Source: Sycon ciliatum | Taxonomy: Eukaryota > Porifera > Calcarea > Leucosolenida > Sycettidae | NCBI RefSeq assembly: GCF_964019385.1 | Contig: NC_088643.1 | Location: forward strand, 1,084,855 to 1,148,854 | Direction: 5' to 3' | DNA length: 64,000 bases | In this document: positions 11,165 to 55,930 of the stretch, one piece after another | Layout: every line of letters begins with the position of its first letter | Numbering within the stretch: the first letter of the stretch is position 1 | Notes under the pieces: model-generated | What the model was told of the DNA's origin: nothing | What the model saw: only the letters and a program-made list of their open reading frames with translations | The model's database searches: none | Made by a program: the position numbers and the translations under genes

Positions 11165-12534
11165 TAAGGACGACTCATCCCGTGCACAAGAATGAACTCG
11201 GATGGAGAGCCAAGGATTAAATTAGAAAAAAATAAAAGGATCAAGGAGCTGCAAGTTACGCTATAATAGCCAATAAAACCACCAGTTACAAAACAATCAG
11301 CTCATGCAAACCATTGCACGAAACTGACGTTTTGCAACTAACTGGCTAACAGCTCTTGCACATATCGGATGCGCACTCCAACAGGAATTAAGTTAGAAAT
11401 GACATAAGGAGGGGACGGTGAGCTCAACCAAGATACGCAAGAGCTGAAAGTCTCAGCAGTGAAGGACATTTGGATGTTCATGTATGTCGATGATGATACT
11501 GGCAAGACCATTGGACAATACGGTCAAACCACGATCCAAGGACGCAAAGCAACATTCCACACAACTTGCGTGGCTGAAAAGATGCGATGATCAATAAAAG
11601 GGGAAGCTACGCGAACAAGAATCATGCAAAACCGAACGCCTCAGAAAAACAACACTGTACTTCGACTATGACAATTTAGATGGACAATAAGCAGCGGTAA
11701 CAAACAGCAGTTTCACATGATGATTGTATCGACGTATAGATAAGGACGGCTCATCAGGTGTGCAAGAATGGACTCGGATGGAGAGCCGAGGATTAATTTG
11801 AAAAAAAAAAGACCAAGGAACAACAAGTTACGCTATACTAGGGAGGTTTAGTTCCCACGTAACGGAAACGCGTACGTGGGTGATCCACGTAAAGTGGATG
11901 AAGGGCACCCACGTTGCAATGTTGTGTTTAGTCACACGGAACAAACAAAAGCATGAAGCGAAAGGCCAAAACCTGGTCAAAGACGAAGCTACCCCGGCCT
12001 AAGAAGCTCATCCAATATTTTGATTTCGTGCTTCGGAAACTTATTCAGCTGAGTACCCTCACAGCTCGCACAATGCGCTCCATTCTGATTTTCACCCACG
12101 TTCTGGCGGAACGTGGGTGAGCCTCCATACACGGTATGTCGTGAATCAGAAACGTCTGTACGTGGGTCACTGAGTATCACGTGGTGCACCCACGTAAAGT
12201 ACCCACGGATTACGTGGGACTAAACCTCCCTACTGTCCACTAACACCACCAGTTACTAAACAATCAGCTCATGCGATAACATTGCACGACACCGATCGAC
12301 AGTACTGACGTTCTACAGCTAACTGGCTAACAGCTCCTGCAAATCTTGGATGCGCAATCCAACAGCCTTCCAACTTGGAAGGTTCTAAGTTATAGAAATA
12401 ACACAAGGAGAGAAAGGTAAGCGCAACCAAGATACGCACGAGCTGAAAGTCTCAGCTGTGAAGGACGTTTGCGGATGTTCATGTATGTCGATGATGATAC
12501 AGGCTGGCAAGACCATTGGACAATACGGTAAAAG
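11165..12534 (-). repeat. ~600-bp tandem repeat family, inverted copies
   Basis: Antisense copies of the 5.0-5.9 kb repeat: gagccaaggattaaatt, caagttacgctata, accaccagttac, taactggctaacagctc, ctgaaagtctcagc and gatgttcatgtatgtcgatg recur at ~11205-11520 and ~11770-12500. The second unit is interrupted by a MITE at 11840-12231 and then by the gypsy element after 12534, beyond which its remainder continues at 33525-33590. Confidence 0.8.
11840..12231. mobile_element. MITE with long TIRs and 3-bp target duplication
   Basis: A 392-bp element begins AGGGAGGTTTAGTTCCCACG and ends CGTGGGACTAAACCTCCCT, with further internal CCCACGT copies. Comparison with the uninterrupted repeat at ~5295 (reverse complement reads gctatactgtcc) shows a 3-bp duplication (ACT, or its rotation TAC). 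Superfamily not certain; the 3-bp duplication is compatible with a PIF/Harbinger- or CACTA-like mechanism. Confidence 0.85.
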
Positions 12535-12885
12535 TGTAGTATCCCTGCCTGGCTGATACGGAAGTAATACGGAAGTAATACGGAAGCAATACGGAGCGAC
12601 CTTATGTATATTAATTTTAGTGTATCTTCGCATATAAGCGTACGGCGTTTGCTGCATAAAAGCAGCTGCGCTTTTTCTGTTTTATTTAGATTAGATTAGA
12701 TTGGATAGCAATGAAAGCTAACTCGAAGAATAAGGATTCAGCCTCTAGGTGAGCACCGGAGAGAAAGTTATTTATTTTGCCGCTTCTTCTTTCACTAACG
12801 ATTATATCTCAGGTGTGTACCTGAAAGTAGAATAAAAGTAATTATTGTTGATTTCACCGCGCCTACCACTCGGCTACCCATTACA
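12535..12885 (+). repeat. Gypsy 5' LTR
   Basis: Starts TGTAGTATCCCTGCC and ends CGGCTACCCATTACA. Same length as the 3' LTR at 33174-33524. Contains three short tandem copies of ggaagtaatac-type sequence near its start, and TATATAAG-like AT-rich sequence is absent. Differences noticed from the 3' LTR: ttttattt versus ttttaatt, and gcttcttc versus gcttctcc. Confidence 0.95.
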
Positions 12886-13856: not shown

Positions 13857-14989
13857 GTCCAACTGCTGTGCGTGATGCGCTTCGGACTCACCAGCCGGTT
13901 AGTTTACCAATAGGAGCCTATTTGCTCATTTGTATTCTCGCCATAGTGGGTTTACCCCCTGTCATTCATGCTGTTAGACGTATTGCTATGTTCGCTTGTA
14001 TTGGGGTGCCAGTCCTAGCAGTTGCTTACCTACTCTTCTTAACACCATCGTTTGATGGTCTGAAGTCCCACATTGCTACATTCTTTCACCGCTCCTCCGT
14101 ACACCGTCCATTCACAGTACCAGTTACTATTCAATCCATGCAGTTCAACGCTTTGCTTGACACGGGCTCGGCAGTGACATTAGTGAGCAACAAAGTTTGG
14201 TCAAGCTTGCCTGGGCGTACACCTCTAGTTAAACAGTCACTACCGGATTTGGCTACAATTGATGGGTCATCTATTCCTTTGCATGGATCTGCATGTTTAA
14301 CTTTTTCCATTGATGATCGGCAAGTTTCTCACAATGTTCTGGTTGGTGATGTTCAGCCTGATGTTTTGTTGGGAGTTGATTTTTTCAGAACCCATGGTTG
14401 CGTTCTCAAACCTGCGGACAATTCACTCAAGTTCCCTACCAACTCTCCACCTCGTGTTGATGCCTGTAATAATGATACCAAGAGTGTTCACCACCAAGTT
14501 TGTCATGTCCAATTGACAACACCTGTCGCAATACCGCCGTTCAGCCAAGTACTTCTGCCTGGCAAGCTCCAATTCTCTCCAGCTCCGGGTGATTATCTTC
14601 TGGAAGCATCTGGTAAGCTGCCCGAGCGTTATGACCTCCTCTGTCAAGATGCTGCCATTCACGTGCAAGCGGATAATGATGATGCCCCTTCTGCTACGGT
14701 TGGCTATCCAGTTTTCAATTTCTCCGACCAGCCGATCACACTACCACAGGGTGTGCGGATTGGCTCCATCATGCCATGTATTCCGGTCGACGACGATGAT
14801 ACCTCTGCGATATGTGCTGCTACTACACTTGCAGACGATGGCTCTCGAGAACCGCAGTTCGATCTCAGTCACCTGGATAGTGCCGATCGCCGTTCCGTTC
14901 AAGACCTGATGAGTGAGTATGCTGACTGTGTTTCCACCGGCCCGTTTGACACTGGCCACACAGAGTTCGTCACGCACACCATCGAAGTA
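13805..14989 (+). CDS. pol: Gypsy Pol, 5' part: two hydrophobic segments then aspartic protease (interrupted)
   Basis: The open frame begins inside the end of gag in the -1 frame with no ATG, consistent with frameshifting. The first ~80 residues hold two strongly hydrophobic stretches (LLICILAIVGLPPVI and IAMFACIGVPVLAVAYLLF), unusual for gypsy pol and suggestive of membrane helices. A retropepsin-like domain follows with LLDTGSAVTLVS at ~118 and the flap/ILG-like region LLGVDFF. The frame is broken at 14989 by the palindromic insertion and resumes in frame at 30215. Confidence 0.9.
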
Positions 14990-15450
14990 GTTAGTGCGGG
15001 GCAGGTTCTGGCCCACTTTTTGACCTTTGACCTTTGGGCCAAATAAGGCACACTGTGTTGGTCGTGCTGGGTCTGGCCCCGGGACCCCCCAGAGTTTGAC
15101 CTTTGACCCCTGCCATGCCATAAATGTGCCATAAAGGTTCTTTTCCGTGGCGAACGTGCACTTGTGCACGTTCGGTGCATTCGCACCGTGGAGTAGTAAA
15201 ATACGTACTATTCCCTGATTTGCACATCGTAGATGTGCATTGCATGCAGTGACATATTGCGCATGCGTGCATACGCACGCGGAGCGTGTGACCTTCAGTG
15301 GCCCTGCGTGTGGAAAAGACGCAGTGCAACACAAGGTGTACTAGTACACGTGTCATTATACTACTCCCTGATTCGCACTTCGTAGATGTGCAGCAAACAA
15401 GTTCACGCTCCTTGCATTTGTTTTATTCACACATCGTAGATGTGCACTGA
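14990..15450. repeat. Left terminal region with subterminal palindromes
   Basis: Contains a perfect 11-bp inverted repeat around TT (CGAACGTGCAC/GTGCACGTTCG, 15151-15174), three related short palindromes of the form TGCACATC-GTA-GATGTGCA (15221-15239; variants at 15374-15392 and ~15429-15447), two of them preceded by CCCTGATT, and repeated tttgaccttt blocks at 15019-15035 and 15095-15108. Such repeats near an end are typical protein-binding sites for an element's recombinase or replication protein; that role is inferred. Confidence 0.75.
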
Positions 15451-16436
15451 TTGACAAGTTGCCCATACAGAGCATGTCTAATCGGCTTTTCGATCGGTAA
15501 GAGAATGTTCAAATTCGGCCATATTATGAGCCCCAAGATCAGAATTCGGCTCAACGTAGTACTTGAACCCACCGGTCCTATTACGTCATGTACATTTAGT
15601 CATTTACACACACTCTGTGAAGCACTGAAACATCGGTTTTCGGCGAATTCAACATGCGAAATTTGAAAATTCGGCAAAAAGATGGGTAATTTCTTCAAAA
15701 CCACTGTTTTCGGCGAATTTTTCGCCCGGCCGATTTGGGAAATGCCAACTATCCATGCATGTACATTAGATGCATATTTCTATTTTAATCGGGATACAGT
15801 AAGAATCAACCGGCTACGCCCGGAGTATCATGCATTAAAACAATTATTGAAGGGGTGTCACAGTGAAGCAGTGTTGCTACGCACCACAAATCCCCTCTGC
15901 ACTGTACCGAATCTATACTGGAGAATCCAGAGTGGCCAGCAAAGAGTCACAACCCGCGGGTATCCAGTCACACTAAGGCATGTCCACCATTCCCCACATA
16001 TTCACCATAACAAAACACAATACTGTTTACTATAATACACTTTTATTTAAATAATTGACTTGGATGAGTCTGTAGTAGAGAACACAATGCACGCACACGC
16101 ACGCATGCGCGGACACACACACGCACACACGCACACACACACATCTAGGTTATAGTGCTATACACGTATCTAGGGTTTAGGAAGCACGAGAATATGTCGA
16201 AGCACCCACACATACCCCTTCATGCAGTGTACTTCAGTAGCCCAACACGTTACGACTGCTCAGGACCATCACAAAACACATTACGACCGCTCAGGACCAT
16301 CACAAAACACCACACACTGTTACTACACTGCATACACAGTTACTACACTACGCCTGTTACAAGTACTTACAAATAATTTTGAAAACAAATGGCACATCCC
16401 GAAGACGGCAGCTAGCTCCAGACCTTCATACATACG
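15451..16436. other. No supported gene; TTCGGC repeats and (AC)n tract
   Basis: Several TTCGGC(C/G)AATT-like repeats lie at ~15510-15725. A CA/CG-rich microsatellite is at 16086-16143. At 16255-16330 the phrase caggaccatcacaaaacac occurs twice. An open frame at 15682-16035 shows no recognisable domain. Confidence 0.5.
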
Positions 16437-17017
16437 TCATCTGTAAAACCAAGCATGAGCGCACACAAACACTATTAGTGTCACGAATACGGAAGCAGGG
16501 TAAGACAAGAGGATACGAAACAAGTAAGTATCGCTATAACGAGGGGGTAAGTATACATGTAGACAGAGCAGTGCTTACTTACAGGGTCCGGATACGCTCC
16601 ATGGCGTCCCGGTAGTCGGACTGCAACAGCAGCCCGACTTGCCGGCCCTCCCAGTAACGGGCCCGATGGGCCGCACCCGCCAGGTGTGCGGCCACGGCCT
16701 GGCCTCCCACCAGCCTTTCTCCACTGTAAAAACGAAAGAAACCGCAGAAAGCACAGTGTCATAGAGCTCTTTTGTTGGGGGAGAGAGCTAGGAGCACTGC
16801 ACACTTACCATTTATCGCAATATATGATTAGAAAGAGGCGGCGCTTGACGCACCGCCTCAGGTGTTGAAACAGGGGTACTACCCCTGTAAGGCGAACGCC
16901 ACAGTGACACGTGAACCTCATTTGGGCTGTTTTCAGGATAATGATACTGAAGTGAAGGTGTGAACCGCAAAGCAAGACCTTTACCTTCTTCCTGTCAAAT
17001 TCGCTCCCCAGCTGCAT
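16437..17017 (-). CDS. Spliced two-zinc-finger protein, left-arm copy
   Basis: Minus-strand gene in three exons: 17017-16809 (start MQLGSEF; an inner Met at 16921 begins MRFTCHCG), 16723-16583 and 16439-16437 (the last bases only complete the stop). Introns have consensus GTAAGT donors and pyrimidine-tract CAG acceptors. Exon 1 encodes a Cys2-His-Cys finger (C-H-C, x12, H-x3-C). A second finger, C-x2-C-x12-H-x5-H, is built across the splice junction. The C-terminal tail ends RIRTL and stops 2 nt into the last exon. Finger pairs of this size usually bind DNA or RNA. I do not recognise the family. Confidence 0.65.
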
Positions 17018-17192
17018 ACCGACATCATCCGCTAAAACCCAATCATACCAAGTAACGCAAAGGTCATCAGTTGACCTTTTGGACTTTTCAACTCTTATCC
17101 AAAACCACCAAGAGGAAAAAACCAGGATGAAGAAGACGTCAGTTGTAGAAGCGTTTGTGGAGGAGTTGTTACATTATTCTCAGTAAATAGAT

Positions 17193-18242
17193 ATGGCTGA
17201 TACATTCGGTGTAGACTTGGACGACCGGTCGTGGTCTCTCACCACGGGTCCTTTACTAATAGAAAGGCGGACGCCAATAAGAACAGTTGTGGAGTTGGCA
17301 GATCAAAACGCGCAGCAAGAAATTTGGCACGTCGATGGTAGACTCCATCGGGAGGACGGACCAGCTCTTGTTGATAGTAGGGGAGTGTCCGCCTGGTGCT
17401 ATGGAGGTCGCCTTCATCGCGTTAATGAACCGGCTTGGATAGGACGGGGTAGCATAGAGTACTACCTCAACGGCGCCCGTCATAGAGCCGGCGGTCCTGC
17501 AGTCAGTTATTATGACGCCACATGCGGTATTCTACGGTGGTATCACCACGGAAGACTCCACAGGTATGATGGCCCTGCAGTGGAAACATTTTCAGACCTT
17601 GGTGAAGACTCTGAGGGGTTCTACCGACACCGCGAAGAGTGGTATTGGAATGGCGTCAGACAAAGGATCGGCGACGGCCCTGCTCTGACGGAGAGATTTG
17701 ATGGCGCCTATTTGCTGGAAGCCTGGTATGTCCAAGGGCGTCTACACAGAGTAGACGGACCAGCCAGGATCACTCGGAGTGATGATGGTATCACCATCCA
17801 GTGGTATTATCACGACCGGCTCCACAGGGAGAATGCGCCAGCCGTGATACGCAGGGAAGGTAACAACCGTGTACGGGAGTGGTACCGATACAACCTTCGG
17901 CATAGGGAAGATGGGCCTGCTTTCATCTCTCAGGAGGAGGGTATCTATCAGTGGTACCTCAACGGGGTGTATTACGGTGACCACCATCAAGACCAGGCAA
18001 TACACCCCATGGAGCTGCAGTACATCAATGTAGTGCCTACTAAGGTAGACTCGTCAGCAATAAGTCATGAGCCCATTTGTGTGATTTGTCAGGATACCCT
18101 GAACCGTCCTCTATCCAAGTTGGAGTGTGGTCATGAATTTCACTTCCACTGTATCAAGGAGTGGATCAGTTCTGCCTCCAGCCCAACTTGCCCAACCTGC
18201 CGCTACTCCATGACTGCTGAGGACTTGGTTGAGTTCTTGTAG
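17193..18242 (+). CDS. RING-H2 protein with HREDGPA-type repeats, left-arm copy
   Basis: 349 aa, intronless, from ATG 17193. Residues ~45-260 are about eight degenerate repeats of roughly 25 aa with the core W-Y-x-x-G-R-L-H-R-x-D-G-P-A (e.g. GRLHREDGPA, GRLHRYDGPA, RLHRENAPA); this MORN-like repeat is known from bacterial, protist and large-DNA-virus proteins. Residues 296-336 form a complete C3H2C3 RING-H2 finger (C296, C299, C312, H314, H317, C320, C333, C336). RING-H2 domains usually recruit an E2 enzyme as ubiquitin ligases, so the repeats may choose the substrate. A viral host-interaction role is possible but inferred. The C-terminus is short after the RING. Confidence 0.9.
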   Translation: MADTFGVDLDDRSWSLTTGPLLIERRTPIRTVVELADQNAQQEIWHVDGRLHREDGPALVDSRGVSAWCYGGRLHRVNEPAWIGRGSIEYYLNGARHRAGGPAVSYYDATCGILRWYHHGRLHRYDGPAVETFSDLGEDSEGFYRHREEWYWNGVRQRIGDGPALTERFDGAYLLEAWYVQGRLHRVDGPARITRSDDGITIQWYYHDRLHRENAPAVIRREGNNRVREWYRYNLRHREDGPAFISQEEGIYQWYLNGVYYGDHHQDQAIHPMELQYINVVPTKVDSSAISHEPICVICQDTLNRPLSKLECGHEFHFHCIKEWISSASSPTCPTCRYSMTAEDLVEFL

Positions 18243-18328
18243 TAATACATGACACCGCTGCGTGTAGGCGACTACGAATGACCAGTCATGTGCTACAGAT
18301 GGACACGGACACGCCACCCTAAGTAGCC

Positions 18329-18574
18329 ATGAGCGGCTATTTGGACAAGGACAACAAAGCACCTCGTGGGTGGCCAAGGTTGACACTAGCCACAAGTCTG
18401 GTCGCTCAGTTGAATAAGCTGGGTGTGCCCATGAAGACCATGCAGAGGACAAGACAGACTGGAAGAAACTGTGCAGCTCGACACTCGAGGACAAATCAGT
18501 ATCAGCAGCTACTACACCTTGCTGATGATGCTCACAAGACAGAAGTGGGGAAAAAACTGAATTTCTTTATTTAG
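18329..18574 (+). CDS. Small basic ORF, left-arm copy
   Basis: 81 aa starting MSGYLDKDNK with ATG in good context (agccATGa), 87 nt after the RING gene on the same strand. It is rich in Arg, Lys, Gln and Thr (MQRTRQTGRNCAARHSR). No domain recognised. It could be 3' UTR of the RING transcript rather than a gene. Confidence 0.35.
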   Translation: MSGYLDKDNKAPRGWPRLTLATSLVAQLNKLGVPMKTMQRTRQTGRNCAARHSRTNQYQQLLHLADDAHKTEVGKKLNFFI

Positions 18575-18659
18575 TGCTCAACTACGCGAAATGTGTTATT
18601 ATTATTATACATGTTCAACTGTAATCAGTCTGGCTGACTGCCATTCTCTACCACACATT

Positions 18660-19805
18660 ACCGGACACTGTTGTGGTTGTCGTCGTTATCGTCGTCGTTG
18701 TTGATGTTGTAGTCGGTTGTTGTCGTCGTTATCGTCGTCGTTGTTGATGTTGTTATTGGTTGTTGTTGTCGGTTGTTGCCGGTTGTTGTCGTCGTTTGTT
18801 GTTGGTTGTTGTTGGTTGTTGTTGATGTTGTAGTCGGTTGTCGTCGTCGTTATCGTCGTCGTTGTTGATGTTGTTATTGGTTGTTGTTGGTTGTTGTTGT
18901 GTGTTGTTGTCGGTTGTTGTTGGCTGTTGGATGTTGTTGTCGGTTGTTGCTGGTTATTGTTGGTTGTTGTTGGTTGTTGTTGTTGTCGGTTGTTGTCGGT
19001 TGTTGGGTGTTGTTGTCGGCTGTTGGGTGTTCTTGTTGGTTGGTGTTGGTTGTTGTTGGTTGTTGTCGGTTGTTGTCCGTTGTTGTCGGCTGTTGCTAGT
19101 TGTTGCTGGTTGTTGTTGTTGGCTGTTGTTGGTTGTTGTTGGATGTTGTTGTCGGTTGTTGTCGATTGCTAGTTGTTGGTTGTAGTTGGTTGTTGTCGGT
19201 TGTTGTTGGTTGTTGTCGGTTGTTTTCGGCCGTTGTCGGTTGTTGTTGTTTATTGTTGGCTGTTGTTGGTTGTTGTTGGGTGTTGTTTGGTATTGTTGTC
19301 GGTTGTTGCCGGTTGTCGTTTGCTGTTGTTGGTTGTTGTTGCCGGTTGTTGTCGGTTGTTGGGTGTTGTTGTCGGTTGTTGGGTGTTGTTGTTGTCGGTT
19401 GTTGGGTGGTGTTGTTGGTTGTTGTTGGTTGTTGTTGGTTGTTGCCGGATGTTGTCGGTTGTTGTTGGTTGTTGTTGTCGGTTGTTGTCGGTTGTTGTCA
19501 GTTGTTATTGGTTGTTGTTGGTTGTTGTTGGTTGTTGTTGGTTGTTGTTGGCTGTTGTTGGCTGTTGTTGTCGGTTGTTGTTGGTTGTTGTTGGTAGTTG
19601 TTGTCGGTTGCTGTCGGTTGTTGTCGGTTGTTGTCGGTTGTTGTTGTTTGTTGTTGGTTGTTGTTGGTTGTTGTTGGTTGTTGTTGGTTGTTGTTGGCTG
19701 TTGTTGTTGTTTGTTGTTGGTTGTTGTTGTCGGTTGTTGTCGGTTGTTGGGTGTTGTTGTTGGTTATTGTCGGTTGTTGTCGGTTGTTGTCGGTTGTTGT
19801 GTTTT
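18660..19805. repeat. TTG-based minisatellite, left-arm copy
   Basis: About 1.15 kb of tandem GTTGTTG/GTTGTCG units (decamers such as ttgttgtcgg and hexamers ttgttg/ttgttgg). All forward frames stay open only because of composition, so these are not genes. Mirrored at 25396-26541. Confidence 0.95.
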
Positions 19806-20298
19806 AACCCTTTGCGGTGCATCAGTCATTAACGACTGATATTGTGTACATACCGTAAAACTGTCGTAACTCCATCGATTTTAGTCCTGTTGCACATATC
19901 GAAATATGTAGATTAATCGTTATTTTGTTCATTATCCAGGAGGATGTTGCTATGATTCAGTACCATTTTTTCGCATAATGAGACGAGTTTGTGTAACGTT
20001 AGTGTGACGTGGGTATGCTGATTGGATGCGAGGTGGTGAGAGTATGCTGATTGGCCGATAACAATTAGTGGAAGGGATAAAGTAATGCGCTGCTTGTGCA
20101 GCGTAACCAAACACATGGTCTGTGGGAAACACCCTAGTAAAATAAATAAAATAATAATAACATGAATTGCCACCGGCACTTGAGAGACTCGAGCCCCGCC
20201 ACCTTGTTCAAATCGGACTTGGTAGCTTCGTATTGGAACTTAATCTTCTTCTTTTTGAGGTATGACCGTACAAAACGCGCTTGGAGTTTTCATTTATT
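19806..20298. other. No supported gene
   Basis: Between the minisatellite and the 246-aa gene cluster. Contains AT-rich stretches and paired inverted CCAAT-like attgg boxes at ~20032 and ~20050. Open frames lack an ATG start. Confidence 0.4.
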
Positions 20299-20505
20299 TT
20301 ATTTTTTCATTGCAACTTTTTTAGCAGATGTCCACTCGTGAAACAACGGTGAATCTGGAACGAATAAATGGTCCATGCCAAAGGCATGACGAGTCTCGAA
20401 GTCTTCACATTCATGATGGAACCTTGTCATGATTGACGCATTCCTTGATGGTGCGCACATGAAATCAACCTGGCTCATCTTTTCCAATTCCATTCCTTTC
20501 ACATC
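20299..20505 (-). CDS. Possible 3' exon of the 246-aa gene, left-arm copy
   Basis: About 68 codons ending in a Lys-rich tail (AKKVAMKK) before a stop. The reading starts directly after a good acceptor (gggttgcag) at 20506, and the first Met is five codons in. The 246-aa gene holds a consensus donor (AAG/GTACGT) at 20908/20907 in the same phase, so a spliced isoform would swap the last ~60 residues for this segment. In this arm the fourth codon is Gly (GGA); in the other it is Arg (AGA). No domain recognised. Confidence 0.4.
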   Translation of the reverse strand, partial: DVKGMELEKMSQVDFMCAPSRNASIMTRFHHECEDFETRHAFGMDHLFVPDSPLFHEWTSAKKVAMKK

Positions 20506-20727
20506 CTGCAACCCATACCCTACTAGTATCAGTGGGGACGCTAGAATCAGAAGAGGCAAGGCAGCACTCTTCCGTGGATGTATTACTCGACACAACACCA
20601 CCCATACTTGTTTTCTAGAAGTTTTGAATATAATGATATATTGCAGTAGGAAGTAGTATACAGTCAAATAGGATAGGATAAGAATGAATGATCAGCTGTC
20701 TGATAAAGAATGCAGTTCATTAAAGAC

Positions 20728-21468
20728 TTATTGGAAGCTCTCTACCAGCTGATCGTCTTGTTGAACGACGACACTGCATAATGATATGAAGCTCTCAGTT
20801 AGCTGTTTCAGTTCCGTGGTAGAAAGTGTCATGTGCGCGTCCAGAGCACGATGAAAACATCTGGGCTCCACGTGGATGCAGACGATTGGAGCAACAGTAA
20901 GACGTACCTTCAACGCCTGCTCGTCAAGGTCGAAGGAGACTGCCCCGGGGTAGATGAAAACATCTTGTTCCACATCCAGTTCGAACGAGCTGGTCGGGAC
21001 TAGCTTGCTTTCACCGTTGATGTATACCCGACATTGACCGTCGGACGAACGTGATGGGTAGAAGTTGGTCTTGATCTTCTCCACACGTCCTCTTCGGAGA
21101 GTGTCACGGAGCGATGGACAAGTCTTGATCAAGTTCGTAATGATGAACTCAGTGGACTCATTCAGGTCGATGTAAACCTGTCCTTGAGCATCTTTGCGAG
21201 CTGTTGCCGTACTACCACAGGCTGGTAGAGCTCCTGAAGGGAAGTACATCTTATAACCAGGCTTGTAGAAGGATCTACCTGATGACTTGTAGGACAGTTG
21301 CATGTCCTCCTGAAACCCATCCACCACAATCTCTTTGTGGAGCTTGGTAGGAGCAGGTGGCACATAGCGACGCTTAGCCGGTACTGCGTTCGAAGAGAGC
21401 ACAACTTGAGGAGGGTCAGCAGGAAGAGCGGAATTCTTCCTCACCCGTCGCTCGTAAAGGGAATCCAT
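20728..21468 (-). CDS. Unknown 246-aa protein, left-arm copy
   Basis: Start chosen at MDSLYERR (21468, strong context gaagATGg); an upstream ATG at 21498 has weaker context and adds ten residues. The N-terminus is Pro/Arg/Lys-rich (KRRYVPPAPTKLHKE), followed by a globular-looking region with alternating hydrophobics, and there is no signal peptide or membrane segment. No family recognised; it could be a structural or nucleic-acid-binding protein. A TATA box (21548-21555) lies ~80 bp upstream, below 33-bp repeats with CCAAT boxes. A possible intron donor is inside the C-terminal third. Confidence 0.75.
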   Translation of the reverse strand: MDSLYERRVRKNSALPADPPQVVLSSNAVPAKRRYVPPAPTKLHKEIVVDGFQEDMQLSYKSSGRSFYKPGYKMYFPSGALPACGSTATARKDAQGQVYIDLNESTEFIITNLIKTCPSLRDTLRRGRVEKIKTNFYPSRSSDGQCRVYINGESKLVPTSSFELDVEQDVFIYPGAVSFDLDEQALKVRLTVAPIVCIHVEPRCFHRALDAHMTLSTTELKQLTESFISLCSVVVQQDDQLVESFQ

Positions 21469-21547
21469 CTTCCAGGAAGCGAAGGCAGAACAACTCATCA
21501 GCACTGTATTCGATGAACGAATGACTCAACTACAGGACAACCATCTG

Positions 21548-21731
21548 TATTTATACAAGTCAGAGACGGGGGCGGATTGAAATGTTAAAATATGTGTCAA
21601 CTAGATCAACCAATCACCATCAAGCCCGACACAAACATTTGCCCAATCAGCATTGAGCCCGCCAAAAACATTTGACCAACCAGCATCAAACCCACCAAAA
21701 ACATTTTGTCCAGTCAGCGGCATGCCCACCA
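21548..21731 (-). promoter_or_regulatory. TATA box and four 33-bp CCAAT-box repeats, left-arm copy
   Basis: Mirror of 23471-23653: four units of 33-34 bp, three carrying attgg or gttgg (inverted CCAAT), end ~50 bp upstream of TATAAATA on the minus strand. This layout is a eukaryotic RNA polymerase II promoter driving the 246-aa gene; NF-Y binding is inferred. Confidence 0.75.
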
Positions 21732-21741
21732 AATAATTATC

Positions 21742-22470
21742 TCATCTTAAAGATTCCTTACATGATACAGCCACTTTAGTGAACTGATACAGTATGGAAA
21801 TAAGATCAAAGTCAAACGTGTGCAAGTTCTGAATCACGTGATCAAGTGAATAGGTTTCCCAACAATAGGCATCAATCAATGATGTCATAAGAGATGTATC
21901 AGATGGAGATAAAATCAGCAAATTCGTACGCAACGTGGACAGTTGAGATGATGACACCATCCTGGTCGACTCCATGAGATGCAGTACATATAGGAGTGGA
22001 AAATGCTGAGGAAGAGGTTTCATGATTCGACTGAACCTCAACCACGATACATTGCTACGAGGTAAGTAGGAACGCAGTTTACGTAGTACATCCACATTCG
22101 TATCGTATACTATGCAGGATAATGCTATAGCATAGTTTAAACTCTTGTACAAACAGGATTTTTTCATCGCAAGTAACTGCTCCCGAAGAGGGTGTACGCA
22201 AAGCTGATCGGATAAGAGTTCAGTTTTCGAAAGAAAATGCAAAAGATGACGATCCACACCGCATAACCGCTCATGTACAGCGTAACGCTTCTTCATCAAA
22301 CTACATCTCCTATGCACATCATCTTCAGGGAAGTAAATCACCGCCATGACAAGTCCACACGAAGAACACACGTATCTTCCTTCATGTAAAACATGATCAA
22401 GATGTTGACACTGTTTTTCCTCCCCGTATTGCTCTTTTTCTTCTTCTTTCTTCTTAAATTCAGAATCCAT
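21742..22470 (-). CDS. Zinc-ribbon TFIIB-like protein, left-arm copy
   Basis: 242 aa from MDSEFKKK (22470, gaagATGg context). An acidic/lysine-rich N-terminus precedes a zinc ribbon, C21-x-H23 ... C35-x2-C38-G-L-V, spaced like the ribbon of TFIIB and of TFIIB-like and late transcription factors of large DNA viruses. The remaining ~190 residues are helix-rich and could hold a very divergent cyclin-like fold, but I cannot show that. If the assignment is right it would recruit RNA polymerase II or act as the element's own initiation factor. Single exon, TATA box ~55 bp upstream, divergent from its twin across the palindrome centre. Confidence 0.7.
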   Translation of the reverse strand: MDSEFKKKEEEKEQYGEEKQCQHLDHVLHEGRYVCSSCGLVMAVIYFPEDDVHRRCSLMKKRYAVHERLCGVDRHLLHFLSKTELLSDQLCVHPLREQLLAMKKSCLYKSLNYAIALSCIVYDTNVDVLRKLRSYLPRSNVSWLRFSRIMKPLPQHFPLLYVLHLMESTRMVSSSQLSTLRTNLLILSPSDTSLMTSLIDAYCWETYSLDHVIQNLHTFDFDLISILYQFTKVAVSCKESLR

Positions 22471-22730
22471 CTTCACTCCTCACCAACATCCTCATTATGA
22501 CACTATATCCAGCATGATATCTACTTTATATAACCAATCCTATCCAGGGCAATTATCAGGTACAACCATGGGGGTAGATGACCTCATACCCTCGCCGACG
22601 TGTTGGCGAGGGTATGAGGTCATCTACCCCCATGGTTGTACCTGATAATTGCCCTGGATAGGATTGGTTATATAAAGTAGATATCATGCTGGATATAGTG
22701 TCATAATGAGGATGTTGGTGAGGAGTGAAG
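22471..22730. promoter_or_regulatory. Palindrome centre: bidirectional TATA promoters and hairpin loop
   Basis: Two outward-facing TATA boxes (TTATATAAAG at 22668-22677 on plus; mirror at 22524-22533 on minus), each ~55 bp from the ATG of a TFIIB-like gene. At the very centre, arms ending in CTCGCC and GGCGAG enclose the 8-nt loop GACGTGTT (22597-22604). It could extrude as a cruciform or represent a fused hairpin end. Confidence 0.85.
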
Positions 22731-23459
22731 ATGGATTCTGAATTTAAGAAGAAAGAAGAAGAAAAAGAGCAATACGGGGAGGAAAAACAGTGTCAACATC
22801 TTGATCATGTTTTACATGAAGGAAGATACGTGTGTTCTTCGTGTGGACTTGTCATGGCGGTGATTTACTTCCCTGAAGATGATGTGCATAGGAGATGTAG
22901 TTTGATGAAGAAGCGTTACGCTGTACATGAGCGGTTATGCGGTGTGGATCGTCATCTTTTGCATTTTCTTTCGAAAACTGAACTCTTATCCGATCAGCTT
23001 TGCGTACACCCTCTTCGGGAGCAGTTACTTGCGATGAAAAAATCCTGTTTGTACAAGAGTTTAAACTATGCTATAGCATTATCCTGCATAGTATACGATA
23101 CGAATGTGGATGTACTACGTAAACTGCGTTCCTACTTACCTCGTAGCAATGTATCGTGGTTGAGGTTCAGTCGAATCATGAAACCTCTTCCTCAGCATTT
23201 TCCACTCCTATATGTACTGCATCTCATGGAGTCGACCAGGATGGTGTCATCATCTCAACTGTCCACGTTGCGTACGAATTTGCTGATTTTATCTCCATCT
23301 GATACATCTCTTATGACATCATTGATTGATGCCTATTGTTGGGAAACCTATTCACTTGATCACGTGATTCAGAACTTGCACACGTTTGACTTTGATCTTA
23401 TTTCCATACTGTATCAGTTCACTAAAGTGGCTGTATCATGTAAGGAATCTTTAAGATGA
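22731..23459 (+). CDS. Zinc-ribbon TFIIB-like protein, right-arm copy
   Basis: Same 242-aa protein as the left-arm copy, with no amino-acid difference seen. ATG at 22731 follows the TATA box at 22668-22677. The stop is 12 nt before the CCAAT-repeat promoter of the next gene, so the two genes lie head to tail with almost no spacer, as in compact viral genomes. Confidence 0.7.
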   Translation: MDSEFKKKEEEKEQYGEEKQCQHLDHVLHEGRYVCSSCGLVMAVIYFPEDDVHRRCSLMKKRYAVHERLCGVDRHLLHFLSKTELLSDQLCVHPLREQLLAMKKSCLYKSLNYAIALSCIVYDTNVDVLRKLRSYLPRSNVSWLRFSRIMKPLPQHFPLLYVLHLMESTRMVSSSQLSTLRTNLLILSPSDTSLMTSLIDAYCWETYSLDHVIQNLHTFDFDLISILYQFTKVAVSCKESLR

Positions 23460-23470
23460 GATAATTATTT

Positions 23471-23653
23471 GGTGGGCATGCCGCTGACTGGACAAAATGT
23501 TTTTGGTGGGTTTGATGCTGGTTGGTCAAATGTTTTTGGCGGGCTCAATGCTGATTGGGCAAATGTTTGTGTCGGGCTTGATGGTGATTGGTTGATCTAG
23601 TTGACACATATTTTAACATTTCAATCCGCCCCCGTCTCTGACTTGTATAAATA
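23471..23653 (+). promoter_or_regulatory. Four 33-bp CCAAT-box repeats and TATA box, right-arm copy
   Basis: Repeat units begin with GGTGGG/GGCGGG/GTCGGG at 23471, 23505, 23538 and 23571, and share the form gatgctg-ttgg-caaatgtttttgg with an inverted CCAAT (attgg, gttgg) in three of them. TATAAATA follows at 23646-23653, ~80 bp before the preferred ATG at 23733. Confidence 0.78.
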
Positions 23654-23732
23654 CAGATGGTTGTCCTGTAGTTGAGTCATTCGTTCATCGAATACAGTGC
23701 TGATGAGTTGTTCTGCCTTCGCTTCCTGGAAG

Positions 23733-24473
23733 ATGGATTCCCTTTACGAGCGACGGGTGAGGAAGAATTCCGCTCTTCCTGCTGACCCTCCTCAAGTTGT
23801 GCTCTCTTCGAACGCAGTACCGGCTAAGCGTCGCTATGTGCCACCTGCTCCTACCAAGCTCCACAAAGAGATTGTGGTGGATGGGTTTCAGGAGGACATG
23901 CAACTGTCCTACAAGTCATCAGGTAGATCCTTCTACAAGCCTGGTTATAAGATGTACTTCCCTTCAGGAGCTCTACCAGCCTGTGGTAGTACGGCAACAG
24001 CTCGCAAAGATGCTCAAGGACAGGTTTACATCGACCTGAATGAGTCCACTGAGTTCATCATTACGAACTTGATCAAGACTTGTCCATCGCTCCGTGACAC
24101 TCTCCGAAGAGGACGTGTGGAGAAGATCAAGACCAACTTCTACCCATCACGTTCGTCCGACGGTCAATGTCGGGTATACATCAACGGTGAAAGCAAGCTA
24201 GTCCCGACCAGCTCGTTCGAACTGGATGTGGAACAAGATGTTTTCATCTACCCCGGGGCAGTCTCCTTCGACCTTGACGAGCAGGCGTTGAAGGTACGTC
24301 TTACTGTTGCTCCAATCGTCTGCATCCACGTGGAGCCCAGATGTTTTCATCGTGCTCTGGACGCGCACATGACACTTTCTACCACGGAACTGAAACAGCT
24401 AACTGAGAGCTTCATATCATTATGCAGTGTCGTCGTTCAACAAGACGATCAGCTGGTAGAGAGCTTCCAATAA
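23733..24473 (+). CDS. Unknown 246-aa protein, right-arm copy
   Basis: Identical in translation to the left-arm copy. A consensus donor AAG/GTACGT at 24293/24294 and the acceptor at 24695 would allow in-phase splicing to the exon at 24696-24902; the unspliced reading ends at 24473. No family recognised. Confidence 0.75.
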   Translation: MDSLYERRVRKNSALPADPPQVVLSSNAVPAKRRYVPPAPTKLHKEIVVDGFQEDMQLSYKSSGRSFYKPGYKMYFPSGALPACGSTATARKDAQGQVYIDLNESTEFIITNLIKTCPSLRDTLRRGRVEKIKTNFYPSRSSDGQCRVYINGESKLVPTSSFELDVEQDVFIYPGAVSFDLDEQALKVRLTVAPIVCIHVEPRCFHRALDAHMTLSTTELKQLTESFISLCSVVVQQDDQLVESFQ

Positions 24474-24695
24474 GTCTTTAATGAACTGCATTCTTTATCA
24501 GACAGCTGATCATTCATTCTTATCCTATCCTATTTGACTGTATACTACTTCCTACTGCAATATATCATTATATTCAAAACTTCTAGAAAACAAGTATGGG
24601 TGGTGTTGTGTCGAGTAATACATCCACGGAAGAGTGCTGCCTTGCCTCTTCTGATTCTAGCGTCCCCACTGATACTAGTAGGGTATGGGTTGCAG

Positions 24696-24902
24696 GATGT
24701 GAAAAGAATGGAATTGGAAAAGATGAGCCAGGTTGATTTCATGTGCGCACCATCAAGGAATGCGTCAATCATGACAAGGTTCCATCATGAATGTGAAGAC
24801 TTCGAGACTCGTCATGCCTTTGGCATGGACCATTTATTCGTTCCAGATTCACCGTTGTTTCACGAGTGGACATCTGCTAAAAAAGTTGCAATGAAAAAAT
24901 AA
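24696..24902 (+). CDS. Possible 3' exon of the 246-aa gene, right-arm copy
   Basis: Mirror of 20299-20505. The only substitution I noticed between the palindrome arms falls here (A at 24705), changing the fourth codon to Arg. Exon status depends on use of the 24294-24695 intron. Confidence 0.4.
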   Translation, partial: DVKRMELEKMSQVDFMCAPSRNASIMTRFHHECEDFETRHAFGMDHLFVPDSPLFHEWTSAKKVAMKK

Positions 24903-25395
24903 AATAAATGAAAACTCCAAGCGCGTTTTGTACGGTCATACCTCAAAAAGAAGAAGATTAAGTTCCAATACGAAGCTACCAAGTCCGATTTGAACAAGGT
25001 GGCGGGGCTCGAGTCTCTCAAGTGCCGGTGGCAATTCATGTTATTATTATTTTATTTATTTTACTAGGGTGTTTCCCACAGACCATGTGTTTGGTTACGC
25101 TGCACAAGCAGCGCATTACTTTATCCCTTCCACTAATTGTTATCGGCCAATCAGCATACTCTCACCACCTCGCATCCAATCAGCATACCCACGTCACACT
25201 AACGTTACACAAACTCGTCTCATTATGCGAAAAAATGGTACTGAATCATAGCAACATCCTCCTGGATAATGAACAAAATAACGATTAATCTACATATTTC
25301 GATATGTGCAACAGGACTAAAATCGATGGAGTTACGACAGTTTTACGGTATGTACACAATATCAGTCGTTAATGACTGATGCACCGCAAAGGGTT
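24903..25395. other. No supported gene
   Basis: Mirror of 19806-20298. AT-rich with ccaat boxes at ~25147 and ~25176. No coding feature supported. Confidence 0.4.
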
Positions 25396-26541
25396 AAAAC
25401 ACAACAACCGACAACAACCGACAACAACCGACAATAACCAACAACAACACCCAACAACCGACAACAACCGACAACAACAACCAACAACAAACAACAACAA
25501 CAGCCAACAACAACCAACAACAACCAACAACAACCAACAACAACCAACAACAAACAACAACAACCGACAACAACCGACAACAACCGACAGCAACCGACAA
25601 CAACTACCAACAACAACCAACAACAACCGACAACAACAGCCAACAACAGCCAACAACAACCAACAACAACCAACAACAACCAACAACAACCAATAACAAC
25701 TGACAACAACCGACAACAACCGACAACAACAACCAACAACAACCGACAACATCCGGCAACAACCAACAACAACCAACAACAACCAACAACACCACCCAAC
25801 AACCGACAACAACAACACCCAACAACCGACAACAACACCCAACAACCGACAACAACCGGCAACAACAACCAACAACAGCAAACGACAACCGGCAACAACC
25901 GACAACAATACCAAACAACACCCAACAACAACCAACAACAGCCAACAATAAACAACAACAACCGACAACGGCCGAAAACAACCGACAACAACCAACAACA
26001 ACCGACAACAACCAACTACAACCAACAACTAGCAATCGACAACAACCGACAACAACATCCAACAACAACCAACAACAGCCAACAACAACAACCAGCAACA
26101 ACTAGCAACAGCCGACAACAACGGACAACAACCGACAACAACCAACAACAACCAACACCAACCAACAAGAACACCCAACAGCCGACAACAACACCCAACA
26201 ACCGACAACAACCGACAACAACAACAACCAACAACAACCAACAATAACCAGCAACAACCGACAACAACATCCAACAGCCAACAACAACCGACAACAACAC
26301 ACAACAACAACCAACAACAACCAATAACAACATCAACAACGACGACGATAACGACGACGACAACCGACTACAACATCAACAACAACCAACAACAACCAAC
26401 AACAAACGACGACAACAACCGGCAACAACCGACAACAACAACCAATAACAACATCAACAACGACGACGATAACGACGACAACAACCGACTACAACATCAA
26501 CAACGACGACGATAACGACGACAACCACAACAGTGTCCGGT
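25396..26541. repeat. CAA-based minisatellite, right-arm copy
   Basis: Reverse complement of the left-arm minisatellite (caaccgacaa/caacaac units). Its unit order appears preserved in mirror image along its whole length, which is striking for a class of repeat that mutates quickly. Confidence 0.95.
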
Positions 26542-26626
26542 AATGTGTGGTAGAGAATGGCAGTCAGCCAGACTGATTACAGTTGAACATGTATAATAAT
26601 AATAACACATTTCGCGTAGTTGAGCA

Positions 26627-26872
26627 CTAAATAAAGAAATTCAGTTTTTTCCCCACTTCTGTCTTGTGAGCATCATCAGCAAGGTGTAGTAGCTGCTGAT
26701 ACTGATTTGTCCTCGAGTGTCGAGCTGCACAGTTTCTTCCAGTCTGTCTTGTCCTCTGCATGGTCTTCATGGGCACACCCAGCTTATTCAACTGAGCGAC
26801 CAGACTTGTGGCTAGTGTCAACCTTGGCCACCCACGAGGTGCTTTGTTGTCCTTGTCCAAATAGCCGCTCAT
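26627..26872 (-). CDS. Small basic ORF, right-arm copy
   Basis: Mirror of the 81-aa ORF at 18329-18574, with no change seen. Same doubts about being a real gene. Confidence 0.35.
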   Translation of the reverse strand: MSGYLDKDNKAPRGWPRLTLATSLVAQLNKLGVPMKTMQRTRQTGRNCAARHSRTNQYQQLLHLADDAHKTEVGKKLNFFI

Positions 26873-26958
26873 GGCTACTTAGGGTGGCGTGTCCGTGTCC
26901 ATCTGTAGCACATGACTGGTCATTCGTAGTCGCCTACACGCAGCGGTGTCATGTATTA

Positions 26959-28008
26959 CTACAAGAACTCAACCAAGTCCTCAGCAGTCATGGAGTAGCG
27001 GCAGGTTGGGCAAGTTGGGCTGGAGGCAGAACTGATCCACTCCTTGATACAGTGGAAGTGAAATTCATGACCACACTCCAACTTGGATAGAGGACGGTTC
27101 AGGGTATCCTGACAAATCACACAAATGGGCTCATGACTTATTGCTGACGAGTCTACCTTAGTAGGCACTACATTGATGTACTGCAGCTCCATGGGGTGTA
27201 TTGCCTGGTCTTGATGGTGGTCACCGTAATACACCCCGTTGAGGTACCACTGATAGATACCCTCCTCCTGAGAGATGAAAGCAGGCCCATCTTCCCTATG
27301 CCGAAGGTTGTATCGGTACCACTCCCGTACACGGTTGTTACCTTCCCTGCGTATCACGGCTGGCGCATTCTCCCTGTGGAGCCGGTCGTGATAATACCAC
27401 TGGATGGTGATACCATCATCACTCCGAGTGATCCTGGCTGGTCCGTCTACTCTGTGTAGACGCCCTTGGACATACCAGGCTTCCAGCAAATAGGCGCCAT
27501 CAAATCTCTCCGTCAGAGCAGGGCCGTCGCCGATCCTTTGTCTGACGCCATTCCAATACCACTCTTCGCGGTGTCGGTAGAACCCCTCAGAGTCTTCACC
27601 AAGGTCTGAAAATGTTTCCACTGCAGGGCCATCATACCTGTGGAGTCTTCCGTGGTGATACCACCGTAGAATACCGCATGTGGCGTCATAATAACTGACT
27701 GCAGGACCGCCGGCTCTATGACGGGCGCCGTTGAGGTAGTACTCTATGCTACCCCGTCCTATCCAAGCCGGTTCATTAACGCGATGAAGGCGACCTCCAT
27801 AGCACCAGGCGGACACTCCCCTACTATCAACAAGAGCTGGTCCGTCCTCCCGATGGAGTCTACCATCGACGTGCCAAATTTCTTGCTGCGCGTTTTGATC
27901 TGCCAACTCCACAACTGTTCTTATTGGCGTCCGCCTTTCTATTAGTAAAGGACCCGTGGTGAGAGACCACGACCGGTCGTCCAAGTCTACACCGAATGTA
28001 TCAGCCAT
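26959..28008 (-). CDS. RING-H2 protein with HREDGPA-type repeats, right-arm copy
   Basis: Identical in translation to the left-arm 349-aa protein: about eight MORN-like repeats, then the C3H2C3 RING-H2 finger at residues 296-336. Transcribed toward the palindrome centre, like its twin. Confidence 0.9.
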   Translation of the reverse strand: MADTFGVDLDDRSWSLTTGPLLIERRTPIRTVVELADQNAQQEIWHVDGRLHREDGPALVDSRGVSAWCYGGRLHRVNEPAWIGRGSIEYYLNGARHRAGGPAVSYYDATCGILRWYHHGRLHRYDGPAVETFSDLGEDSEGFYRHREEWYWNGVRQRIGDGPALTERFDGAYLLEAWYVQGRLHRVDGPARITRSDDGITIQWYYHDRLHRENAPAVIRREGNNRVREWYRYNLRHREDGPAFISQEEGIYQWYLNGVYYGDHHQDQAIHPMELQYINVVPTKVDSSAISHEPICVICQDTLNRPLSKLECGHEFHFHCIKEWISSASSPTCPTCRYSMTAEDLVEFL

Positions 28009-28183
28009 ATCTATTTACTGAGAATAATGTAACAACTCCTCCACAAACGCTTCTACAACTGACGTCTTCTTCATCCTGGTTTTTTCCTCTTGGTGGTTTT
28101 GGATAAGAGTTGAAAAGTCCAAAAGGTCAACTGATGACCTTTGCGTTACTTGGTATGATTGGGTTTTAGCGGATGATGTCGGT

Positions 28184-28765
28184 ATGCAGCTGGGGAGCGA
28201 ATTTGACAGGAAGAAGGTAAAGGTCTTGCTTTGCGGTTCACACCTTCACTTCAGTATCATTATCCTGAAAACAGCCCAAATGAGGTTCACGTGTCACTGT
28301 GGCGTTCGCCTTACAGGGGTAGTACCCCTGTTTCAACACCTGAGGCGGTGCGTCAAGCGCCGCCTCTTTCTAATCATATATTGCGATAAATGGTAAGTGT
28401 GCAGTGCTCCTAGCTCTCTCCCCCAACAAAAGAGCTCTATGACACTGTGCTTTCTGCGGTTTCTTTCGTTTTTACAGTGGAGAAAGGCTGGTGGGAGGCC
28501 AGGCCGTGGCCGCACACCTGGCGGGTGCGGCCCATCGGGCCCGTTACTGGGAGGGCCGGCAAGTCGGGCTGCTGTTGCAGTCCGACTACCGGGACGCCAT
28601 GGAGCGTATCCGGACCCTGTAAGTAAGCACTGCTCTGTCTACATGTATACTTACCCCCCTCGTTATAGCGATACTTACTTGTTTCGTATCCTCTTGTCTT
28701 ACCCTGCTTCCGTATTCGTGACACTAATAGTGTTTGTGTGCGCTCATGCTTGGTTTTACAGATGA
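28184..28765 (+). CDS. Spliced two-zinc-finger protein, right-arm copy
   Basis: Exons 28184-28392, 28478-28618 and 28762-28765, with introns GTAAGT...TTTTACAG and GTAAGT...TTTTACAG. The inner start MRFTCHCG is at 28280. The second intron holds the single-base length difference between the arms, so the protein is unaffected. The second finger (C-x2-C-x12-H-x5-H) is completed only after splicing, which supports both the gene and its introns. Confidence 0.65.
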
Positions 28766-29751
28766 CGTATGTATGAAGGTCTGGAGCTAGCTGCCGTCTT
28801 CGGGATGTGCCATTTGTTTTCAAAATTATTTGTAAGTACTTGTAACAGGCGTAGTGTAGTAACTGTGTATGCAGTGTAGTAACAGTGTGTGGTGTTTTGT
28901 GATGGTCCTGAGCGGTCGTAATGTGTTTTGTGATGGTCCTGAGCAGTCGTAACGTGTTGGGCTACTGAAGTACACTGCATGAAGGGGTATGTGTGGGTGC
29001 TTCGACATATTCTCGTGCTTCCTAAACCCTAGATACGTGTATAGCACTATAACCTAGATGTGTGTGTGTGCGTGTGTGCGTGTGTGTGTCCGCGCATGCG
29101 TGCGTGTGCGTGCATTGTGTTCTCTACTACAGACTCATCCAAGTCAATTATTTAAATAAAAGTGTATTATAGTAAACAGTATTGTGTTTTGTTATGGTGA
29201 ATATGTGGGGAATGGTGGACATGCCTTAGTGTGACTGGATACCCGCGGGTTGTGACTCTTTGCTGGCCACTCTGGATTCTCCAGTATAGATTCGGTACAG
29301 TGCAGAGGGGATTTGTGGTGCGTAGCAACACTGCTTCACTGTGACACCCCTTCAATAATTGTTTTAATGCATGATACTCCGGGCGTAGCCGGTTGATTCT
29401 TACTGTATCCCGATTAAAATAGAAATATGCATCTAATGTACATGCATGGATAGTTGGCATTTCCCAAATCGGCCGGGCGAAAAATTCGCCGAAAACAGTG
29501 GTTTTGAAGAAATTACCCATCTTTTTGCCGAATTTTCAAATTTCGCATGTTGAATTCGCCGAAAACCGATGTTTCAGTGCTTCACAGAGTGTGTGTAAAT
29601 GACTAAATGTACATGACGTAATAGGACCGGTGGGTTCAAGTACTACGTTGAGCCGAATTCTGATCTTGGGGCTCATAATATGGCCGAATTTGAACATTCT
29701 CTTACCGATCGAAAAGCCGATTAGACATGCTCTGTATGGGCAACTTGTCAA
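28766..29751. other. No supported gene; mirror of 15451-16436
   Basis: Contains the (GT)n tract at 29059-29116, the TTCGCCGAAAA repeats at ~29470-29570 and the same unassigned open frame on the minus strand (29167-29520). Confidence 0.5.
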
Positions 29752-30212
29752 TCAGTGCACATCTACGATGTGTGAATAAAACAAATGCAAGGAGCGTGAA
29801 CTTGTTTGCTGCACATCTACGAAGTGCGAATCAGGGAGTAGTATAATGACACGTGTACTAGTACACCTTGTGTTGCACTGCGTCTTTTCCACACGCAGGG
29901 CCACTGAAGGTCACACGCTCCGCGTGCGTATGCACGCATGCGCAATATGTCACTGCATGCAATGCACATCTACGATGTGCAAATCAGGGAATAGTACGTA
30001 TTTTACTACTCCACGGTGCGAATGCACCGAACGTGCACAAGTGCACGTTCGCCACGGAAAAGAACCTTTATGGCACATTTATGGCATGGCAGGGGTCAAA
30101 GGTCAAACTCTGGGGGGTCCCGGGGCCAGACCCAGCACGACCAACACAGTGTGCCTTATTTGGCCCAAAGGTCAAAGGTCAAAAAGTGGGCCAGAACCTG
30201 CCCCGCACTAAC
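29752..30212. repeat. Right terminal region with subterminal palindromes
   Basis: Mirror of the left terminal region: TGCACATCTACGATGTG-type palindromes at ~29755-29773, ~29810-29828 and ~29963-29981, and the 11-bp inverted repeat around AA at ~30028-30051. Ends ...CCCCGCACTAAC followed by TA. Confidence 0.75.
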
Positions 30213-30214
30213 TA

Positions 30215-33160: not shown

Positions 33161-33173
33161 TAGGAAGGGAGGG
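33161..33173 (+). other. Gypsy polypurine tract
   Basis: TAGGAAGGGAGGG directly before the 3' LTR, the usual primer for plus-strand DNA synthesis. Confidence 0.85.
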
Positions 33174-33524
33174 TGTAGTATCCCTGCCTGGCTGATACGG
33201 AAGTAATACGGAAGTAATACGGAAGCAATACGGAGCGACCTTATGTATATTAATTTTAGTGTATCTTCGCATATAAGCGTACGGCGTTTGCTGCATAAAA
33301 GCAGCTGCGCTTTTTCTGTTTTAATTAGATTAGATTAGATTGGATAGCAATGAAAGCTAACTCGAAGAATAAGGATTCAGCCTCTAGGTGAGCACCGGAG
33401 AGAAAGTTATTTATTTTGCCGCTTCTCCTTTCACTAACGATTATATCTCAGGTGTGTACCTGAAAGTAGAATAAAAGTAATTATTGTTGATTTCACCGCG
33501 CCTACCACTCGGCTACCCATTACA
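33174..33524 (+). repeat. Gypsy 3' LTR
   Basis: 351 bp, TG...CA, near-identical to the 5' LTR. Followed by AAAG, the target-site duplication, and then by the remainder of the ~600-bp repeat into which the element inserted. Confidence 0.95.
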
Positions 33525-51615: not shown

Positions 51616-51700
51616 TTTCTCTCCCTTCTCACTGTGCCGAAATTCACAGTGACCAAACAATTCGAAATTGATTATTGTTCTGAAATAGGCAAACAAGGAG

Positions 51701-53140: not shown

Positions 53141-53146
53141 TCGTAC

Positions 53147-55897: not shown

Positions 55898-55911
55898 AAT
55901 GGCTCCGTGAT

Positions 55912-55929: not shown

Positions 55930-55930
55930 A

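Follow-up and report, generated by a model that had tools for sequence, protein, structure and literature searches.

A palindromic element inserted in a gypsy retrotransposon

The window analysed here, 64,000 nucleotides in full, is a stretch of the genome of the calcareous sponge Sycon ciliatum (contig NC_088643.1 of assembly GCF_964019385.1; C1:1084855-1148854 in the genome coordinates used below), and it contains a palindrome of 15,231 bp (14986-30216, window coordinates) nested in a gypsy element. The left arm (14986-22596, plus strand) starts at AGTAGTTAGTGCGGGGC and runs inward to an 8-nt central spacer, GACGTGTT (22597-22604), beyond which the right arm (22605-30216, minus strand) mirrors it; in other copies the spacer is the same, reverse-complemented or absent. 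Between the 7.6-kb arms there are two differences, a substitution (20496/24705) and a 1-bp indel (16542/28659), in agreement with an earlier note on this DNA, which had described a near-perfect palindrome within the gypsy pol gene. The termini read AGTAGTTAGT at one end and ACTAACTACT at the other, giving an AGTAGT...ACTACT boundary at 14986 and 30216 (certain copies have AGTAGTAAGT); the exact inverted ends and clean junctions reported in that note stand, with limits that lie further out than it had placed them. A degenerate GTTGTTGTCG-type tandem array occupies 18670-19800 (plus strand), with its mirror copy at about 25401-26532.

The host gypsy element is bounded by long terminal repeats (LTRs) at 12534-12885 and 33173-33524 (both plus strand) that differ at 2 of 352 positions, and the rest of its pol frame, broken by the insertion, specifies reverse transcriptase, RNase H and integrase at 30401-33136 (plus strand). 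On either side the palindrome is flanked by a 6-bp target-site duplication, CATCGA (14980-14985 and 30217-30222), which is present as a single copy at the empty site. Excision of the element with one CATCGA copy leaves the pol frame open across 180 joined bases per side, and the joined 32-nt empty site has 21 matches at ≤3 mismatches, of which 18 are exact, in the genome searched (538 Mb, 313 contigs), as opposed to 0 for the reversed control; we therefore read the locus as the product of a clean insertion that hit a repeated target and duplicated 6 bp of it. The earlier note had called for such a search, and it was right that the frame is open after excision, but it had taken the duplication to be TA. 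We rejected this assignment, since CATCGA flanks the element, equal 6-bp duplications recur in the family described below and the empty sites hold a single copy; the TA belongs to the conserved end sequence AGTAGTTAGT.

Genes carried by the arms

ORF1 (17193-18242, plus strand; mirror copy 26959-28008, minus strand) encodes a protein of 349 amino acids (aa) with weak DUF6745-like repeats and a C-terminal RING finger; in Pfam the RING finger is matched at E 9.5e-10 and DUF6745 at E 5.8e-4, under the curated cut-off. Relatives of ORF1 are numerous in metagenomes (1461 proteins at E ≤ 0.001), and the frame is intact in 9 of 22 arms. ORF2 (20728-21504, minus strand; mirror copy 23697-24473, plus strand) encodes a 258-aa protein without a known domain and is full length in 20 of the 22 arms examined. 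Its ratio of non-synonymous to synonymous change (dN/dS) between elements is 0.30-0.46 for pairs with any synonymous change and 0.61-0.83 versus C11b, a divergent copy; as synonymous changes number just 2-8, these values only suggest selection. One homologue of ORF2 (P0003) bears an 'scpid/scgid' name, a form used for Sycon ciliatum. Another (52%; P0005) is filed as a protein of a Bacteroidota metagenome-assembled genome on a 2.3-kb contig, which is perhaps animal DNA binned with bacteria.

ORF3 (21742-22476, minus strand; mirror copy 22725-23459, plus strand) encodes a 244-aa, tentatively TFIIB-like protein with a homologue at the left end of an asymmetric element described below. A sub-threshold TFIIB zinc ribbon is found in ORF3 and in all five of the relatives scanned, and the outcome of its fold search is no more than suggestive. 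Altogether 68 frames of at least 50 aa were listed in the left arm, 17 of which were scanned with Pfam (three also with PHROGs); as in the earlier note, no polymerase, integrase or transposase domain was recognised, here by Pfam among those 17 frames.

A genome-wide family of palindromes

The end pattern of the window element occurs 324 times (161 + 163) in the genome at ≤3 mismatches and 0 times in the control, and we accordingly rejected a chance origin for it; many palindromic copies are among the elements so bounded, and the search for further copies that the earlier note had advocated was thus productive. Pairing of the 100 ends listed among these 324, in plus-then-minus order only and taking palindromic and asymmetric elements together, placed 78 in 39 pairs (median 15.4 kb, range 12.8-24.7 kb); among the 22 left unpaired, three are extra minus ends adjoining a pair. 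Extra minus-strand ends lie some 1-2.4 kb past the paired end at C7:34376094-34395932 and C9:29011137-29030866 (spacing 1,013 bp on C9), which suggests repeated or extended termini.

A probe of 1 kb from the arm, for which 40 of 983 first-look candidates were scored and 11 of 51 rows were left out as short secondary pieces, located 40 primary places; neighbours among these that lie no more than 30 kb apart converge in 15 of 15 pairs. All 11 elements read as halves (the window element and ten others) have mirror-image arms, which agree at 99.2-99.96% along their best aligned stretch of 6.1-7.7 kb. Where both ends were read, they are mirror images in 20 of 21 elements (in one for 920 bp only), the remaining one being asymmetric, and 19 of the 21 are flanked by equal 6-bp duplications, against 0 of 420 in a cross-pair control. 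Family copies, duplications and empty sites together bear out the earlier suggestion of a mobile, gene-bearing inverted dimer. The palindromes at C13a (L013/L014) and C2:3740159-3757443 (L040/L041), which are without equal 6-bp duplications, are perhaps inter-element recombinants.

The two arms of an element also tend to resemble one another more than they do other copies: over the terminal 1.5 kb, an element's own two ends are mutually closest in 15 of 21 cases. C11b is the most divergent copy in a 1.8-kb region nearer the centre, where 2 of 1,843 positions differ between its arms and 49 of 1,584 separate them from the other arm that is nearest in raw count; near the ends its arms differ by 1.34%, versus 2.44% to the nearest other. 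These comparisons indicate that arms are homogenised at or after insertion.

An asymmetric relative and palindromes of its two ends

The element at C2:32810204-32825684 (hereafter C2:32.81 Mb) has window-type ends and an equal duplication, with a terminal repeat of only ~430 bp beyond which it is asymmetric. Its terminal region is held in common with 14986-15468 of the window element (plus strand; ~94% identity over the first 123 bp, 89% over 34-483), and the window lineage and the asymmetric form share only this region, short stretches and the ORF3 homologue. The latter, a TFIIB-like protein homologous to the ORF3 family (hhalign E 2.4e-24, 37% identity), lies on the left side; inward on the right side is a match to the N-terminus of a PolB open reading frame located elsewhere in the genome (BLASTP, 38% over 157 aa, E 4e-29), contained in broken or spliced frames.

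Probes drawn from the two sides of this element found 39 and 40 primary places (19 of 58 rows for the left-side probe and 0 of 40 for the right-side probe having been left out beforehand as secondary pieces), of which 64 of the 79 fall in 32 paired elements and 15 are unpaired. These 32 comprise 23 asymmetric elements (left plus right), 7 right-right palindromes and 2 left-left palindromes. The span is 14.4-14.6 kb in 18 of the 23 asymmetric elements and 9.7-14.3 kb, between outer probe edges, in the right-right elements. Both arms of a right-right element gave equal probe bit scores in six of seven cases (1798 versus 1784 in the seventh); both sides of the left-left element at C12:9.68 Mb match the probe at 100% (rounded), and those of the other at 87-88%. 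Non-convergent neighbours within 25 kb were limited to two pairs, each joining sides of different elements.

Convergent pairs were also found with a PolB core taken from C1:6.02 Mb (DNA_pol_B_2, E 7.2e-23), which as a probe located 66 primary places (15 of 81 rows dropped as short secondary pieces); judged by probe orientation, neighbours within 30 kb form convergent pairs in 10 of 10 cases, with zero tandem or divergent. The query's own lineage accounts for five of these pairs and 16 single places, and a two-exon lineage with 55-59% identity for the other five pairs and 4 single places, the C13:23.35 Mb pair being assigned by shape to the 58-59% two-exon group. In a third lineage (53-56% identity) each of the 26 places stands alone; six of its copies, all on the plus strand, lie within 0.3 Mb at C1:32546003-32846010, which suggests a local cluster. 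From match limits, the C1:6.02 Mb element begins AGTAGAAAGT after GTCGAT, and its right arm extends to the expected distance. Adjoining this element is a block (L060:1-1264; C1:6020500-6021763) repeated many times over ~C1:5.87-7.55 Mb, a local segmental or satellite-like array.

A probable snap-back origin

We consider it probable that the window element is an integrated snap-back (inverted-dimer) genome of Polinton/Maverick type, and that it represents a palindromic lineage which has been amplified and in which no replication or integration genes were recognised. Polintons have been described with a protein-primed PolB and a retrovirus-like integrase (PMC5718144), and the reported signature of vertebrate Mavericks consists of (AGT)2//(ACT)2 or (AG)3//(CT)3 ends with a 6-bp duplication (PMC8097293). 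Window-type elements resemble these in their (AGT)2-type ends, 6-bp duplication, terminal inverted repeats and size of ~15 kb, and a relative in the same genome has the PolB N-terminus. They differ in that the window element is terminal inverted repeat throughout but for 8 nt and has no unique coding core, whereas C2:32.81 Mb has one, and in that no polymerase or integrase gene was recognised among the frames scanned. Two features expected of a snap-back process are found: the inverted dimer carries an identical terminal repeat at both ends, and a parent-like form with both ends exists alongside palindromes of either end (23 asymmetric, 7 right-right and 2 left-left elements). Because the parent-like asymmetric form coexists with dimers of either end, of similar size and with Polinton-type insertion, snap-back replication followed by integration is the simplest account.

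In such a process the polymerase would turn back near the middle of the genome during protein-primed strand-displacement replication, yielding a hairpin with one terminal repeat; copying round this hairpin would give an inverted dimer with the identical terminal repeat at both ends, which a Polinton integrase could insert with a 6-bp duplication. A displaced palindrome strand would fold on itself, so that a single origin might suffice for its copying, and the likeness of the arms could be maintained by fold-back copying or by mismatch repair within the hairpin. A packaging or replication size limit would suit the median pair spacing of 15.4 kb (palindromic and asymmetric elements together). 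The window lineage, with its RING protein, ORF2 and TFIIB-like protein, would be a satellite to which polymerase and integrase, and perhaps a capsid too, are supplied in trans. We infer snap-back replication, packaging and helper dependence for the palindromes, which are probably helper-dependent relatives of Polintons.

A bolder extension, which we advance tentatively and hold to be nearly an even call, is that the window lineage is a satellite virus of Polintons, palindromic and self-sustaining. It would replicate and integrate only as an inverted dimer, carry its own RING protein, ORF2 and TFIIB-like protein, have its arms regenerated as near-identical copies in each cycle, and borrow polymerase, integrase and capsid from a helper; the same genome would display its likely source, in recurrent snap-back forms from several lineages of Polintons, and would have a germline in which long near-perfect palindromes are tolerated in their tens.

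Several observations weigh against a snap-back origin or narrow it. The centre is identical, spacer aside (8 nt in either orientation, or 0 nt), in 9 of 11 copies, and was not found in the slice examined for the other two, C13c and C8a; because it is common to these nine, the window lineage is inherited as a palindrome and not remade each time. The occurrence of both spacer orientations may reflect no more than insertion in either direction, since the arms are alike. The end pattern is common to asymmetric elements, so the 324 ends do not count the palindromic type alone, and equal duplications are absent from 2 of the 21 elements (C13a and C2:3.74 Mb). The asymmetric element C2:32.81 Mb, of which only the two ends were read, showed neither an integrase or capsid gene nor a PolB core. 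Even with a margin of 1 kb, the 32 probe-defined elements take in 0 of 52 PF03175 places (91 of 166 candidates scored) and 0 of 66 PolB-core places (66 of 763 scored); as these places fall outside, it is N-terminal homology alone that connects the 32 elements with PolB. A genome search with the integrase family PF00665 gave matches dominated by LTR elements. Nor is the window lineage a simple half of the asymmetric element, from which it differs in gene order and with which its ORF3 is only 37% identical; given the different gene order, we have not found the direct parent of the window lineage.

The arms, too, give a mixed picture. An element's own ends are not closest in 6 of 21 cases (one tie, three near-twins, one interrupted and one asymmetric), and in the 1.8-kb region towards the centre own arms pair in only 5 of 11 elements in a tree of 22 arms, the reason being that as few as 0-3 changes separate recent elements. 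Arm likeness alone does not separate copying from gene conversion, and chromosomal gene conversion could have produced it.

Alternative explanations

One alternative, which we regard as unlikely, is that an ordinary inverted duplication arose once and has since behaved as a simple non-autonomous element whose terminal inverted repeats are very long; a Polinton integrase would mobilise it, and gene conversion in the chromosome would keep its arms alike. The shared centre would then reflect clonality of the window lineage, and gene conversion would give similar arms without any snap-back step. What a single origin does not readily provide is palindromes of both ends of the asymmetric element together with 10 convergent PolB pairs, which argue for a recurrent source, as well as the equal bit scores of both arms in six of the seven right-right elements.

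Considerably less probable is a native form of 7.6 kb, a linear virus or plasmid closed covalently by a hairpin at one end, whose centre is resolved by a dedicated enzyme and whose 15-kb form is a replication dimer. The centre does resemble a hairpin end, since in 9 of 11 copies the arms of the inverted repeat meet there directly or across 8 nt; against this, a resolvase-like gene was not recognised among the 17 frames of the left arm that were scanned, and the related right-right palindromes have other spans.

The earlier note had offered a choice between a new class of transposon and an integrated virus or plasmid. The virus-like part of this proposal agrees with our reading; a stand-alone class that is not related to Polintons and carries an unrecognised transposase of its own is very improbable, for although ORF2 lacks a known domain and gives a poor predicted model, the Maverick signature is matched by the ends and the 6-bp duplication, and the terminal repeat is common to an asymmetric element with a PolB N-terminus. 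An assembly or read fold-back artefact, to which large palindromes are known to be prone and which the note had already doubted, is scarcely credible and was rejected on three counts: arm differences private to one side, equal 6-bp duplications at both junctions in 19 of 21 elements, and empty sites, including exact ones, elsewhere in the genome.

Other features of the window

Outside the gypsy element, a ~4.3-kb unit is tandemly duplicated at 39594-48736 (99.6% identical over 4.8 kb) and holds two copies of a 537-aa open reading frame (40739-42352 and 45079-46692, minus strand), for which no Pfam match at E ≤ 1e-5 was found in the one copy scanned. A young LTR element at 50942-56604, which we take to be Pao-like, has two 674-bp LTRs with zero differences and open reading frames matching DUF5641 and DUF1759 between them.

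Relation to known systems and significance

Palindromic defective genomes that are inverted duplications of one end are familiar from adenoviruses, which have protein-primed replication and inverted terminal repeats. To our knowledge adenoviruses have no integrase, and their palindromic genomes are passage products and not integrated families; the likeness to the sponge elements is the inverted duplication of one end, and the difference is the absence of integration into families. Foldback transposons resemble the sponge elements in their long inverted repeats and short middle; the ends, 6-bp duplication, gene content and Polinton-like relative of the window element point away from that group.

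The snapback genomes of adeno-associated virus (AAV) are described as self-complementary inverted dimers formed from either end of the genome, and as satellite or defective interfering particles (PMC8235507). The sponge elements share with these the inverted dimerisation of a single genome end, which can be either of the two; by way of difference, AAV is a small single-stranded DNA virus, whereas the sponge copies are 15 kb long, integrated and bounded by Polinton ends, with genes of their own in the window lineage. Since that paper proposes end joining for AAV snapback genomes, fold-back copying is something we infer for the sponge elements. The literature that we searched, which covered few subscription papers and no bioRxiv, yielded no palindromic Polintons, and this is weak evidence of absence; as far as we found, the snap-back form is known for some small viruses and is apparently undescribed as a genomic mobile element.

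Long near-perfect palindromes are regarded as unstable. As many such copies nevertheless sit in one genome, both the tolerance of palindromes and the homogenisation of their arms become testable in this sponge. Palindromes of both ends would be the genomic footprint of protein-primed Polinton replication turning back, and this mode of replication would become testable in turn. Polintons/Mavericks are regarded as integrated virus-like elements whose particles had not been observed (PMC8097293); if it is true that the window lineage is a satellite, then Polintons have parasites of their own.

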